A DNA stretch of 64,000 nt from Methylotenera sp. L2L1 (GTDB taxonomy: Bacteria > Pseudomonadota > Gammaproteobacteria > Burkholderiales > Methylophilaceae): positions 1,798,001 through 1,862,000 of the forward strand of contig NZ_JQMG01000001.1 of assembly GCF_000744605.1 (NCBI RefSeq), given 5' to 3'. The translations under genes were made by a program, and so were the position numbers. The notes beneath the pieces are model-generated. The model had not been told where the DNA came from. It did no database searches and saw nothing but the letters and a program-made list of their open reading frames with translations. Of this stretch, positions 10,724-63,205 are shown piece by piece; position 1 is the stretch's first letter; every line of letters begins with the position of its first letter.

Positions 10724-11310
10724 TGAAAAACTTTGTTAAAGAAAACTTGGTGTTGATTGTGGGGCTGACTTTCCCTCTATTGTTGATTCTCATTTTCTTT
10801 GCATCGACTGTGATTCCAAAGTTAATGAGTCCACCACCGCAATATGAAATGTTGTTTACCACTAAACAGTATGATTACCAAAATAAAACAGACTACTTGA
10901 TTAATTTTTCAGTAAAGAACCAGAAGTTAATGGTTAAAGTGAATAAGAATGAGAACAAAGACCGCAGTTATGATTTAACGCGACTGATGGCTTACGACGC
11001 CAAGGCTGACACTGTGCGCGAAATTACAGTCGATATTTCTAAGGCGATTGCAACTGCGGCTGATGGTGCTGTGGTGTTGCAGGAAACGGAAAATATGACG
11101 ATTGATACTGCAATGGTCTCACCAGATGGCTATCGCCTAGATGGCCCCCATTATGGTGGGGGCGGTATGGTAGGCGGGCTGTTTGGCGGTGGTTATCGCG
11201 ACAGTGGCTTTAGGCTTAGAAAGGGAAGCATTGGTTATAAAATCCCTCATACACAGCAGCATTATTACTACAACCAAGTCCAGTTTGTTGGGTGGGTCAT
11301 CAAAAAATAA
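10720..11310 (+). CDS. Hypothetical membrane-anchored protein
   Basis: 196 residues, not recognised. One strong hydrophobic segment at about 9-33 ([20 protein letters not shown]) acts as a signal anchor, leaving about 160 residues probably in the periplasm. The C-terminal part has a Gly-rich stretch ([14 protein letters not shown]) and an aromatic stretch near the end. It overlaps miaA by ATGA and is followed 9 bp later by a DUF2157 membrane protein, so the three genes probably form one transcript. No catalytic motif is visible. Confidence 0.8.
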
Positions 11311-60075: not shown

Positions 60076-60142
60076 TTATTCAAGCTTATCTCTTCTGTAG
60101 TTATTCTTCAAATATCCTTAATTTTTAATTTTCACCCCCGTC

Positions 60143-60162
60143 ATTCCCGCGCAGGCGGGAAT
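60143..60162. repeat. REP-like GC-rich hairpin
   Basis: ATTCCCGC-GCAG-GCGGGAAT is a perfect 8-bp hairpin set in GTCATTCCCGC context. This type of element is dispersed in many betaproteobacterial genomes. Only one copy is seen here, 33 bp beyond the end of the cassette-like region. Confidence 0.6.
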
Positions 60163-60195
60163 CTAGTTAAGGTGATGATAATGACAGCATCAATA

Positions 60196-60693
60196 TTATG
60201 CCTCAAGCGCCTTGCGCCATGCTGCAACCTTCTGCGCTAAAGGCAGTGTATGTGCAGGGCTTGAAGAGGGTAGGCGGACAAAGTTGATATCGCTTATATT
60301 GAGCAGTGGTAAACATAACTTGTTAAAGCTCTTTTCTGCTTTTTCACCGTTAAATCCAACGAGCTTGATATTTGGGTGTTGTTTGAAAAACAACTGAAAG
60401 TCATTCGCTATCTGCGACCTACTTTCAATCGCACTATCTAAGCTACCAGCACGTACACAAGTATGCAAAACATCCCAAACTGCAACACCAGATTCGGTTA
60501 ATCTCTCAACTCTATATTCATAAGCTGATTCAGCATCAAAACCATAGAGGCTACCCATAATACGCCAAAATGCGTTGCGCGGGTGAGCATAATATTGGTT
60601 AGCGTTAAGTGAAAGTGCGCCTGGCATACTGCCCAAGATGAGGATTTTGGCTGATTTTTCTGTGATAGGAGGAAAGCTAGTAATGGTGTTCAT
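60196..60693 (-). CDS. DNA-deoxyinosine glycosylase (UDG superfamily)
   Basis: 165 residues. The motifs ILILGSMPGALSLNANQYYA and HPRNAFWRIMG, and the C-terminal LPSSSPAHT, match the hypoxanthine-DNA glycosylase branch (family 6) of the uracil-DNA glycosylase superfamily. The enzyme removes deaminated adenine (hypoxanthine) from DNA in base excision repair. The ATG is preceded by GTTAGGAG, which is both an attC-type box and a good ribosome binding site. It is the last gene of the cassette-like array. Confidence 0.87.
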   Translation of the reverse strand: MNTITSFPPITEKSAKILILGSMPGALSLNANQYYAHPRNAFWRIMGSLYGFDAESAYEYRVERLTESGVAVWDVLHTCVRAGSLDSAIESRSQIANDFQLFFKQHPNIKLVGFNGEKAEKSFNKLCLPLLNISDINFVRLPSSSPAHTLPLAQKVAAWRKALEA

Positions 60694-60699
60694 CTTGAC

Positions 60700-60770
60700 T
60701 CCTAACGTTCAAGGTCAAGCACGCTGTGCTGCACTGCACGCAAAGTACCAAGCGTAGCGCAGAGGTAGGC
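60700..60770 (-). repeat. Putative attC recombination site A
   Basis: In minus orientation the 71-bp element starts GCCTACC (one mismatch to RYYYAAC) 4 bp after the 231-residue gene stop and ends GTTAGGA, with GAAC just before it. The interior holds short complementary stretches, and GTTAGGAG lies directly before the glycosylase start. The R' box misses the final Y of GTTRRRY. Confidence 0.6.
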
Positions 60771-60774
60771 ATAA

Positions 60775-61470
60775 TTATTCTATGAGCATCCATGTGGAAC
60801 CTGAGTGTTTAACTTGCGCAACGCCACACGGTTTGAGACCAGTAGGATTAGTTTCCGCTGCTGCATAACACTGCTTTTTGACTAGCGCATGGTTAGCGCT
60901 TTCCCAACCTCCATCATGCGGGCCCCACTCGGGCTCGTAGTTTGCTATTCGGTGAAAATCACTCAAGCCCACCTGCCAAATTTCGACATTGTTTGGGCGA
61001 TAGCCAGCGAACATGTCATTAGAAATTGACAGAAAGTGCTTCCCGTCAGGAGATGCCAACGGAAAGCCAGATGGAAACACCTGTTGACCGGAGTGATGAT
61101 GGATAACCATATAACTGTCACCTTCATAGTATTGAACATGGATGATATGGCTATTGAGCTTCCGGCTGTAGCCAAGATAGCTGTACCAAATTGCGCTATC
61201 TCCACTTTCTGTTGGATAGTCCACAAGCGAAACGACCTTCTTCTCCAAGCGAATCAGCAATGTGTAACCTGAGCGGCTAACCACCTTGCTCCTAGCTGAG
61301 AGTTCCTTTTGCTCAATTCCTCTCGCACAGCTAAACATTTTGAGATTCTTCTCTGCGCATTCGGCCACACCAGCTTCTATCGCTTCTGGAGCGATGTACC
61401 CAAAAGCAAATGCCTTTGGCACTACTCCCACGACAAGGGCTACTATCAAGCAAGCAAGGGCAATACGCAT
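60775..61470 (-). CDS. Secreted hypothetical protein (cassette gene)
   Basis: 231 residues with a signal peptide (MRIALACLIVALVVGVVPKA, cleavage near AFA-FGY). The mature part has about six Cys and a repeated-blade-like pattern (HIIHVQYYEGDSYMVIHHHS, ASPDGKHFLSISNDMFAGY) suggestive of a small beta-propeller-like or WD-like fold. Not recognised. It starts 5 bp after the stop of the membrane protein gene, and the two are in one cassette because no attC-like site lies between them. Base composition is richer in GC than the next cassette gene. Confidence 0.72.
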   Translation of the reverse strand: MRIALACLIVALVVGVVPKAFAFGYIAPEAIEAGVAECAEKNLKMFSCARGIEQKELSARSKVVSRSGYTLLIRLEKKVVSLVDYPTESGDSAIWYSYLGYSRKLNSHIIHVQYYEGDSYMVIHHHSGQQVFPSGFPLASPDGKHFLSISNDMFAGYRPNNVEIWQVGLSDFHRIANYEPEWGPHDGGWESANHALVKKQCYAAAETNPTGLKPCGVAQVKHSGSTWMLIE

Positions 61471-61475
61471 TGTGG

Positions 61476-61790
61476 CTAATATTTCACATAGGGGGCGCTG
61501 TTCGTCACACTTGAATGATGAGTTAAGCGTTTACGAACAAATGAACGCACAGCACCAAATGCATAACGTTCGCCAAGGAACCAAACGGATACAGGCCAGA
61601 GGTATAGCGCTAGCCCAATAATCAAAATATCAAAATTAATGAGCATCTCAGACCCAGGGACATAGCAGTCACCGACAGGAGGGCAGCCAATACTATCCAT
61701 GAACTGCCGCTCTAAATTGTGAAGTGCGGCAGGGATGTATAGCACACCAAGCCACCACAGCCATTTGATTGCTAAACCAATCAGTTTCAT
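61476..61790 (-). CDS. Small membrane protein (cassette gene)
   Basis: About 104 residues from the ATG at 61790. Two hydrophobic helices (LIGLAIKWLWWLGVLYIPAA and ILIIGLALYLWPVSVWFLGE) flank a loop with two Cys (GCPPVGDCYVPG). The C-terminus is basic. Not recognised. GTTAGGTG, the proposed attC end, lies just before the start. It is the first gene of a two-gene cassette with the 231-residue secreted protein. Confidence 0.68.
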   Translation of the reverse strand: MKLIGLAIKWLWWLGVLYIPAALHNLERQFMDSIGCPPVGDCYVPGSEMLINFDILIIGLALYLWPVSVWFLGERYAFGAVRSFVRKRLTHHSSVTNSAPYVKY

Positions 61791-61794
61791 AAGC

Positions 61795-61878
61795 ACCTAA
61801 CGAAAATTAAAGGACGCCACGTATTTTCGGCGTTGTGCTTGACCGCAGGGTTACGTGGCAATAAGCAAATTGTTAAAT
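61795..61878 (-). repeat. Putative attC recombination site B
   Basis: An 84-bp imperfect palindrome with both outer boxes intact in minus orientation: ATTTAAC (RYYYAAC) and GTTAGGT (GTTRRRY). Inside, GCCACGTA and TACGTGGC pair perfectly around a loop of about 28 bases. It begins 6 bp after the 128-residue gene and ends just before the 104-residue gene. This is the best attC candidate. Confidence 0.72.
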
Positions 61879-61883
61879 GATTG

Positions 61884-62270
61884 TCAGTCTTCAATCGGAA
61901 CGTAAATATCACCACGTGGGAGATAACCCCAGCCATTTTCTATACGAAAAACGGCACCCTCATAATCAAGTTCTATTTGAATCTCTGTTGCCGGGCACTC
62001 TGGTCCAGCTTTTATTTTTACGGTTGTCTGAGGTTGTTTGAAGGTTGTGATAACCCCAAAACCTGGTTTTTCAGTATTAAAGCATTGGATAAAAAATTGC
62101 TGCCCTTTATCATTGACTGTTACCACTAGATTTATTTTGTTTTTCATCGTAGTGGTATATCCGCCCGTGTCCTTATTTCTTATATTGCTATATGTACCAG
62201 ATAATGGTGTATCTGATGCATGTAAACTATCCGTTATTATCGTCAATATTAGGAAAAAGAGTAGTCTCAT
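61884..62270 (-). CDS. Small secreted hypothetical protein (cassette gene)
   Basis: 128 residues with a signal peptide (LLFFLILTIITDSLHA, cleavage before SDT). The mature domain of about 110 residues is beta-rich with two Cys (FFIQCFNTEKPG and GPECPATE) that may form a disulfide. Not recognised. Single-gene cassette flanked by putative attC sites B and C. Confidence 0.7.
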   Translation of the reverse strand: MRLLFFLILTIITDSLHASDTPLSGTYSNIRNKDTGGYTTTMKNKINLVVTVNDKGQQFFIQCFNTEKPGFGVITTFKQPQTTVKIKAGPECPATEIQIELDYEGAVFRIENGWGYLPRGDIYVPIED

Positions 62271-62299
62271 ATCAGTACCAGTGACCAGTCGTCAGAGTT

Positions 62300-62374
62300 G
62301 CCAAACGTTTCAATTATTAAGATATACAAGGGGCGTGTTTTAGTCCACAGTCCTGCTTGGTGAATGGGTTAGGA
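62300..62374 (-). repeat. Putative attC recombination site C
   Basis: In minus orientation it starts TCCTAAC, overlapping the TAA stop of the 196-residue gene, and ends GTTTGGC about 75 bp later. Each box differs from the consensus at one position. Short TTCA/TGAA complementarity lies inside the boxes. This is the weaker candidate; its distal end is uncertain. Confidence 0.45.
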
Positions 62375-62959
62375 GTTGCGTGGGTCATTTAATTTTTGAA
62401 ATTTTGACCGTTGACGAGAAAATTTGTCTTCTTCGTCCCAGGTAAAAAAAGCCTTAACTGAATATACTGACCCCTCAATATCAGTAAACATAAGTAGAAT
62501 ATATGATGTTTTGGGCGTGGTTACAAGATGACTGTCAATTCCTGTATTTGTGTCGTAGAACTTTTCGAGTCGAGATATAACCTCATTTGCAGTGTATGGA
62601 GATGTATTTATAGTAATGGAGGAACTTTCATTTGGCTTAATTACAACCTTTGTTGTTTTAGGGTAGCGAAATGTTTTTTTCTCATGTTCATAAAGAATAC
62701 AAGAAACATCACGAGCTAGCTTATCCCCCGGATTTACTAAACTTAATGATAAATCCTCTGAGTCGTCGACTCTTTTCAAAGTGCCTGCATATATAAAGGG
62801 GGTTGTTGATACAAAGTGTTGTCTTTGCGCTATCTCGAATTGATTAACTATTGCTTTTCTAGAGGTCCTGGTTTCTAAAAGGTAGAATACAGTAGTGATA
62901 GCTAAAATAAAGTTGAGAGCAATTGGTATTAGTATTTCGGGTTTAAGAAATGTATCCAT
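62369..62959 (-). CDS. Membrane-anchored hypothetical protein (cassette gene)
   Basis: 196 residues. One N-terminal transmembrane helix (PEILIPIALNFILAITTVFY) followed by a coiled-coil-like helix (TRTSRKAIVNQFEIAQRQHF) and a beta-rich soluble domain. No family was recognised. AT-rich relative to neighbours. The stop TAA is part of the proposed attC box TCCTAAC. GTTAGGAG lies 19 bases before the ATG. It is the first gene of the array next to acs. Confidence 0.72.
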   Translation of the reverse strand: MDTFLKPEILIPIALNFILAITTVFYLLETRTSRKAIVNQFEIAQRQHFVSTTPFIYAGTLKRVDDSEDLSLSLVNPGDKLARDVSCILYEHEKKTFRYPKTTKVVIKPNESSSITINTSPYTANEVISRLEKFYDTNTGIDSHLVTTPKTSYILLMFTDIEGSVYSVKAFFTWDEEDKFSRQRSKFQKLNDPRNS

Positions 62960-62972
62960 GCTAAAAAATAAC

Positions 62973-63024
62973 TCCTAACGTGAAGTAGACACCGAATTAG
63001 GTGTATATCTTAGTGATGTTAAAT
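62973..63024 (-). repeat. Putative attC-like site D at the array's acs-proximal end
   Basis: In minus orientation the element starts ATTTAAC and ends GTTAGGA, 52 bp, with an inner ACACC/GGTGT hairpin. ATTTAAC is the same box as in site B and ACGTTAGGAGT is shared with site A. It could be a short attC of a lost cassette or part of an attI. No integrase gene is visible in the window. Confidence 0.5.
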
Positions 63025-63151
63025 GTGAATTTAAATCATTATTTTTATTAAGTTATTAATTCTTATGAGGTTAGTACTTTCATCTGCTTATTTTTCTGCT
63101 AAAAAGTACATCTAAGTAATTAACAGCCAATAGTGATTACGACAGTTCAAA

Positions 63152-63205
63152 AGCGATAACGCTATCATTATTATGATAGGCGGATAGAGTAAAGCATCCG
63201 CCTAT
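63152..63205. terminator. Cluster of hairpins downstream of acs
   Basis: Three overlapping inverted repeats: AGCG-ATAA-CGCT (63152-63163), CTATCAT-TATT-ATGATAG (63162-63179) and ATAGGCGGAT-N10-ATCCGCCTAT (63176-63205). The last is 10 bp perfect and lies 5 bp after the acs stop. T-richness is stronger on the plus-strand side, so a bidirectional end or mutually exclusive folds are possible. Confidence 0.6.

Follow-up and report, generated by a model that had tools for sequence, protein, structure and literature searches.

A probable cassette array led by an attI site and lacking an integrase gene next to acs in Methylotenera

The integron integrase IntI inserts circular gene cassettes at the GTT of an attI site by recombination with the attC sites of the cassettes. 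Clusters of attC sites lacking a nearby integrase gene (CALINs) rival complete integrons in number (2961 against 2760; PMC9024848), and how they arise is a matter of debate. CALINs, their mobilisation in trans and loss of intI, which is one proposed origin of CALINs (PMC8618304), are established ideas (PMC9024848, PMC8618304, PMC11389934, PMC12444791). In Xanthomonas, intI is located at ilvD and CALINs occupy a few fixed loci away from the ilvD-linked integron (PMC12444791); the same paper cites Loot et al. 2024 (doi 10.1038/s41564-023-01548-y) for the off-target insertion of cassettes at attG sites. A further deviation from the canonical arrangement is represented by the Delta-attI cassettes of class 1 and class 2 integrons, in which partial copies of attI are still usable by IntI1 (PMC12901181). 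Outside class 1, attI sites are not detected by IntegronFinder (PMC9024848), so that arrays led by an attI are not told apart from other CALINs.

The window analysed here is a stretch of 64 kb (positions 1798001-1862000) from Methylotenera sp. L2L1, whose genome consists of a single contig of 2.64 Mb (G000). In a first-pass annotation made from the letters of the window, five small minus-strand ORFs next to acs were read as a CALIN. This reading is supported by independent attC models, the location of the sites on a single strand, a gene content that varies between species and the presence of intI elsewhere in the chromosome. On sequence comparison, the locus is probably an attI-led cassette array without intI, and presumably the remnant of an integron (Table 1).

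Table 1. Features of the acs-linked array, in window positions
Feature	Position	Strand	Remarks
Hypoxanthine-DNA glycosylase gene, distal boundary	60196-60693	-	TIGR04274, 168 bits
Site A	60697-60770	-	attC-like end GTTAGGA, R'' degenerate; unsupported
Cassette gene 2	60775-61470	-	231 aa, secreted-protein-like, no family
attC between genes 3 and 2	61474-61528	-	R1 and R2; overlooked in the first-pass annotation
Cassette gene 3	61476-61790	-	about 104 aa, membrane protein
attC B	61795-61856	-	R2; shorter than the 61795-61878 first proposed
Cassette gene 4	61884-62270	-	128 aa, signal-peptide-like start, no family
attC C	62299-62375	-	homologous to main-array attC, insertion in 3' half
Cassette gene 5	62369-62959	-	196 aa, N-terminal membrane helix, no family
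attI core GGTGTCTACTTCACGTTAGG (site D)	62974-62993	-	first insertion point of the array
attI and former intI promoter-side region	62974-63117	-	by alignment to attI sites of G061
Decayed intI 5' end	63117-63152	+	about 14 codons, reading towards acs

Four of the five ORFs were initially reported as unrecognised, and indeed none of these matches a Pfam, NCBIfam or PADLOC family; a PADLOC search of the locus genes, an Rfam scan at the gathering threshold and at E 10, and a search for a cassette promoter, in which promoter-like matches were no better than in shuffles, yielded nothing useful. The start of gene 3 is more likely the ATG at 61790 than that of the ORF 61476-61796, and its C-terminus (LTHHSS...) is encoded within the downstream attC at 61474-61528; among plasmid sequences, this gene weakly matches part of a Variovorax replicon where no gene is annotated, at 39% identity over 67% of the query. 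For gene 2, no plasmid homologue was found, and a 25% match in one of the 51 other genomes of the genus was the only homologue recovered there. All five ORFs are real, but the status of the remaining one, the glycosylase gene, as a cassette is not supported, as no attC follows it at the distal end; in G026, a glycosylase gene 79% identical to it occupies the same place and strand without attC or attI matches there. At the distal edge of the locus (60124-60180) lies a short repeat of the GTCATTCCCGCGCAGGCGGGAATCTAG type that is scattered through the genome.

Two covariance models were built without window sequence, R1 from eight attC sites of the intact integron of G000 and R2 from 24 more diverse attC sites of G000 and other genomes. 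Over the full 64 kb, R1 matched only 61474-61528 (21.8 bits) and 62300-62374, which is site C (18.6 bits), and R2 matched 61474-61528 (23.3 bits) and site B (19.3 bits) and nothing else, the E values in 3.8 kb being 1e-4 and 9e-4, respectively; all of these matches lie inside the locus and on the same strand. Site C received a weak R2 score (9.3 bits in a local scan without filters), and site A gave no match with R1 in the 64 kb or with R2. Of the four inter-gene attC sites proposed by eye, B and C (the latter by R1) are thus supported, whereas A is not, D is an attI, and the site between genes 3 and 2 had been missed. At site B the boxes ATTTAAC and GTTAGGT are present as described, but the outer pair spans more than the site preferred by the model. 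The reading of genes 2 and 3 as one two-gene cassette was dropped: an attC sits between them, and they therefore form two cassettes. A lack of covariance-model matches had been named beforehand as counter-evidence; instead, at least two close attC sites, the number that marks a CALIN, were found with our own models (not those of IntegronFinder), if at low scores.

At genome scale the two R2 matches are marginal (E 0.06 and 0.63), and the folding z-scores relative to shuffles are +0.4 for site A, 0.0 for 61474-61528, -0.2 for B and +1.1 for C. Of four control sites from the main array, two stand out from shuffles (-2.8 and -3.9) and two do not (+0.2 and +0.6), so that the folding test is weak either way. 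Judging from the low genome-scale scores and poor folding, the attC sites of the window look decayed, and because they fold poorly the copy in the window is probably a fossil, in an array that looks inactive now. It is very improbable that the locus comprises ordinary small genes and chance palindromes with no cassette array at all. Such a reading can draw on the shuffle-level folding and on the boxes recognised by eye: a scan for R-box pairs flagged similar pairs inside ordinary genes, with too many matches in coding genes, and box matching alone therefore does not discriminate. It is opposed by the fact that the sole attC-model matches of the 64 kb are confined to the locus and to one strand, by the attI at the head of the array and by the differences in gene content from species to species.

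Site D was dropped as an attC candidate in view of its attI core and its homology on the intI side. The intI-linked attI of G000 ends in GGTGTCTACTTTACGTTAGG, where D reads GGTGTCTACTTCACGTTAGG; the 20-mer core, in which one position may be C or T, has exact matches at no more than these two sites in the 2.64 Mb genome, and it likewise marks intI-linked attI sites elsewhere in the genus and outside it. The D region aligns with the intI-linked attI of G061 at a score of 178 (65 for the best of 200 shuffles), with homology running into the intI start, and with the acs-linked attI of the same genome at 213 (69 in shuffles), this latter alignment being unbroken from the acs stop codon through the terminator and the intI remnant to the attI. 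The remnant itself scores 62 against the intI start region of G061 (maximum 53 in 2000 shuffles), and the corresponding remnant of G061, which still reads MDKPSIQLRLVQK against MTKQPTLLEVVQQK, scores 55, a value reached once in 2000 shuffles. From the core identity and the alignments into the intI start it therefore follows that an attI and an intI scar remain at acs: the array is headed by an attI at D, as in a complete integron, and in place of an adjoining intI a few decayed codons are left.

This homology also bears on the off-target insertion of cassettes by a distant IntI at a non-attI site (attG), which we consider unlikely here. CALINs away from intI are common, and in G014 the cassettes directly follow the acs terminator, behind GTTAGGC, in the absence of a recognised attI; the insertion site at D, however, is not unrelated to attI but is an attI with intI-side homology rather than a loose GTT motif. 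The attG reading is thus largely refuted for G000 but may hold for G014.

The first-pass annotation reported no intI in the window and proposed a search of the genome, and the search bears this out: the only TIGR02249 match above the cut-off, an intact intI of 327 aa (480 bits), lies beside ilvD at about 1.281 Mb, 577 kb from the array. The ilvD integron comprises about a dozen genes and about ten attC matches, several of them nearly identical and 58-60 nt long. Given this distance and the presence of a separate attI at the head of the acs array, the suggestion that the array is the distal part of a chromosomal integron, here the far end of the ilvD integron, does not hold. Elsewhere in G000, a third attI-like site, GGATGCCTACTTTACGTTAG (G000:C1:1956094-1956113; L117, about 11095-11113), is located immediately behind tpx, and the genes that come after it are small and on the minus strand, with no intI; R2 found no convincing attC in this tpx-linked array, even without filters. 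More attC matches, of up to 66 bits, are found at G000:C1:390596-391231, 1391579-1392317, 1542471-1542530 and 2524932-2525431, far from intI and without a recognised attI core, and represent more small CALINs.

In 52 genomes of the genus, the attI core with up to 2 mismatches was found at 33 places in 22 genomes; the reversed pattern, used as a control, gave 6. The match in G029, which seems to fall within a coding gene, is probably due to chance. An attI without intI is present within 250 bp after acs in G000, G061, G062 (Methylotenera mobilis 13), G072 and G007. The frame DUF2934 - PAS - (secreted gene) - variable part - acs is common to many species, the variable part containing small genes, almost all on the minus strand, in G000, G014, G061, G062 and G072, a diguanylate cyclase gene and a glycosylase gene in G026, and being absent from G025. 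Strict conservation of the five genes, which had been expected to refute the cassette reading, was not observed: the gene content of the acs interval differs between each Methylotenera species examined, and none of the four cassette genes of G000 is common to the acs locus of any relative. One small distal gene is common to G014 and G061 and is related to a gene in the tpx-linked region of G000. Strong attC matches (41-69 bits) are present in the acs arrays of G061, G072 and G014, and intI-linked or attI-led arrays of other taxa contain counterparts, at 68-93%, of some acs-locus cassettes of G072 and G014, among them a GNAT acetyltransferase and a BrnT/CopG toxin-antitoxin pair. Cassette turnover is thus seen in the comparison between species; turnover in trans could possibly be mimicked by differential loss from one large ancestral array. 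In M. mobilis 13, the acs array and the ilvD array each hold an identical copy of a 345-aa gene that probably comes from an insertion sequence (L098 8564-9601 and L119).

A plausible course of events begins with a complete integron at acs, whose IntI would have acted in cis and filled the attI with cassettes. Presumably intI was then deleted, about 14 degenerate codons being left, after which capture may have proceeded in trans from the intact ilvD-side integron 577 kb away; four small-gene cassettes would remain behind the attI, their attC sites decaying. Simple deletion has to compete with another scheme, which is possible but which we doubt: that no complete integron ever existed at acs and that the acs terminator region received a copied segment of another integron, comprising attI and the 5' end of intI, by homologous recombination, gene conversion or a side reaction of IntI, the cassettes being gathered later. 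The attI sites at the same acs position belong to two types, one in G000 and G061 and the other in G062, G072 and G007, and in G007 (L102, L124) the acs-linked attI is identical over 92 bp to another attI of the same genome that adjoins a 51-codon intI fragment, which suggests that one locus can acquire an attI segment copied from another. Similarly, no intI was seen directly beside acs or tpx in the genus genomes examined, in which it is mostly found at ilvD, and tpx carries an intI-less attI in G000, G024 and G026. Nevertheless, the intI remnant of G000 and G061 is most simply a deletion scar, and the copying mechanism would be a hypothetical one. In G003, G019 and G028 (L108, L109, L112), acs and intI share an orientation and are 6-8 kb apart, intI being next to a conserved gene other than ilvD. 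At L118 (G061:C1:408545-409031), two attI types precede one intI in tandem; the inner attI retains a handful of codons from a second type of intI, as though an integron had inserted next to an existing one.

Between G000 and G061, the last 35 nt of attI show 3 differences, whereas 59 of the 129 four-fold sites in acs differ (46%; p 2e-5). The rest of the same intergenic stretch provides a fairer comparison because it is also less diverged than the four-fold sites, and against it the p value is 0.016; the 20-nt core is not significantly more conserved than its surroundings (p 0.11). In G062 and G072, the 35 nt show no differences against 30% divergence around them (p 2e-5 relative to their own intergenic rest), the shared origin of the junction being less clear for this pair than for G000 and G061. 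The latter two have the whole acs-scar-attI junction in common and no cassette in common. The common junction implies that the loss of intI most simply predates their split, and, taken with the different cassettes and the conserved attI end, it suggests that a distant IntI later used the site in trans. The genomes in which acs or tpx has an intI-less attI (G000, G061, G062, G072, G007, G024 and G026) all have an intact intI elsewhere, seven of seven compared with about 30 of the 51 genus genomes tested, a co-occurrence that kinship renders only suggestive. In our view, it is about as likely as not that cassette exchange in trans followed the loss of intI. A bolder and quite tentative extension would have one chromosomal IntI serving several fixed attI docking sites (ilvD, acs and tpx) as a multi-port system, with intI-less attI sites kept by selection and many CALINs of Betaproteobacteria being attI-led ports that current software does not see.

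The pattern is not confined to G000. Among 85k species genomes, the exact attI-core pattern was found in 79 stretches, compared with a chance expectation of about 7 (our estimate from the information content of the pattern). An intI sequence, in some cases a 5' fragment only, is within reach in 43 of the 79; 29 lack intI within 600 bp although at least 1.2 kb of upstream sequence is present, and for one of these 29 an intI lies at 1.6 kb. Most of these unlinked cores are preceded by more attI-type sequence, and at least 15 are followed by attC matches on the expected side (L145, L150, L154, L162, L166, L167, L178, L181, L182, L185, L191, L196, L206, L209 and L214).

Since the attI, the intI scar and the junction common to two species are preserved, the loss route to a CALIN becomes testable at sequence level; capture in trans can likewise be put to the test, through the conserved attI that lacks intI. 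No description of attI-led CALINs was found in the freely accessible literature searched; provisionally, what is new is that a conserved attI without intI heads a CALIN, the CALIN itself being of a known kind. The acs array resembles the Delta-attI cassettes in that partial copies of attI, usable by IntI1 in that case (PMC12901181), occur outside their usual position; there, however, the partial attI replaces the attC of a cassette inside an intI-bearing integron, whereas the acs array has no intI. With attG insertion it shares cassettes at intI-less chromosomal places, in its own case possibly served by a distant IntI, but attG sites are described, in papers citing Loot et al. 2024, as neither attI nor attC, and D is an attI by homology. 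In Xanthomonas, as in Methylotenera, intI is at ilvD and CALINs are at a few fixed loci; in the available text on these (PMC12444791), attI is not reported at them, whereas the acs array has one at its head. Like CALINs in general, the acs locus has at least two attC sites, no intI nearby and an intact integron elsewhere in the chromosome; what sets it apart is the recognisable attI at its start, together with an intI remnant.
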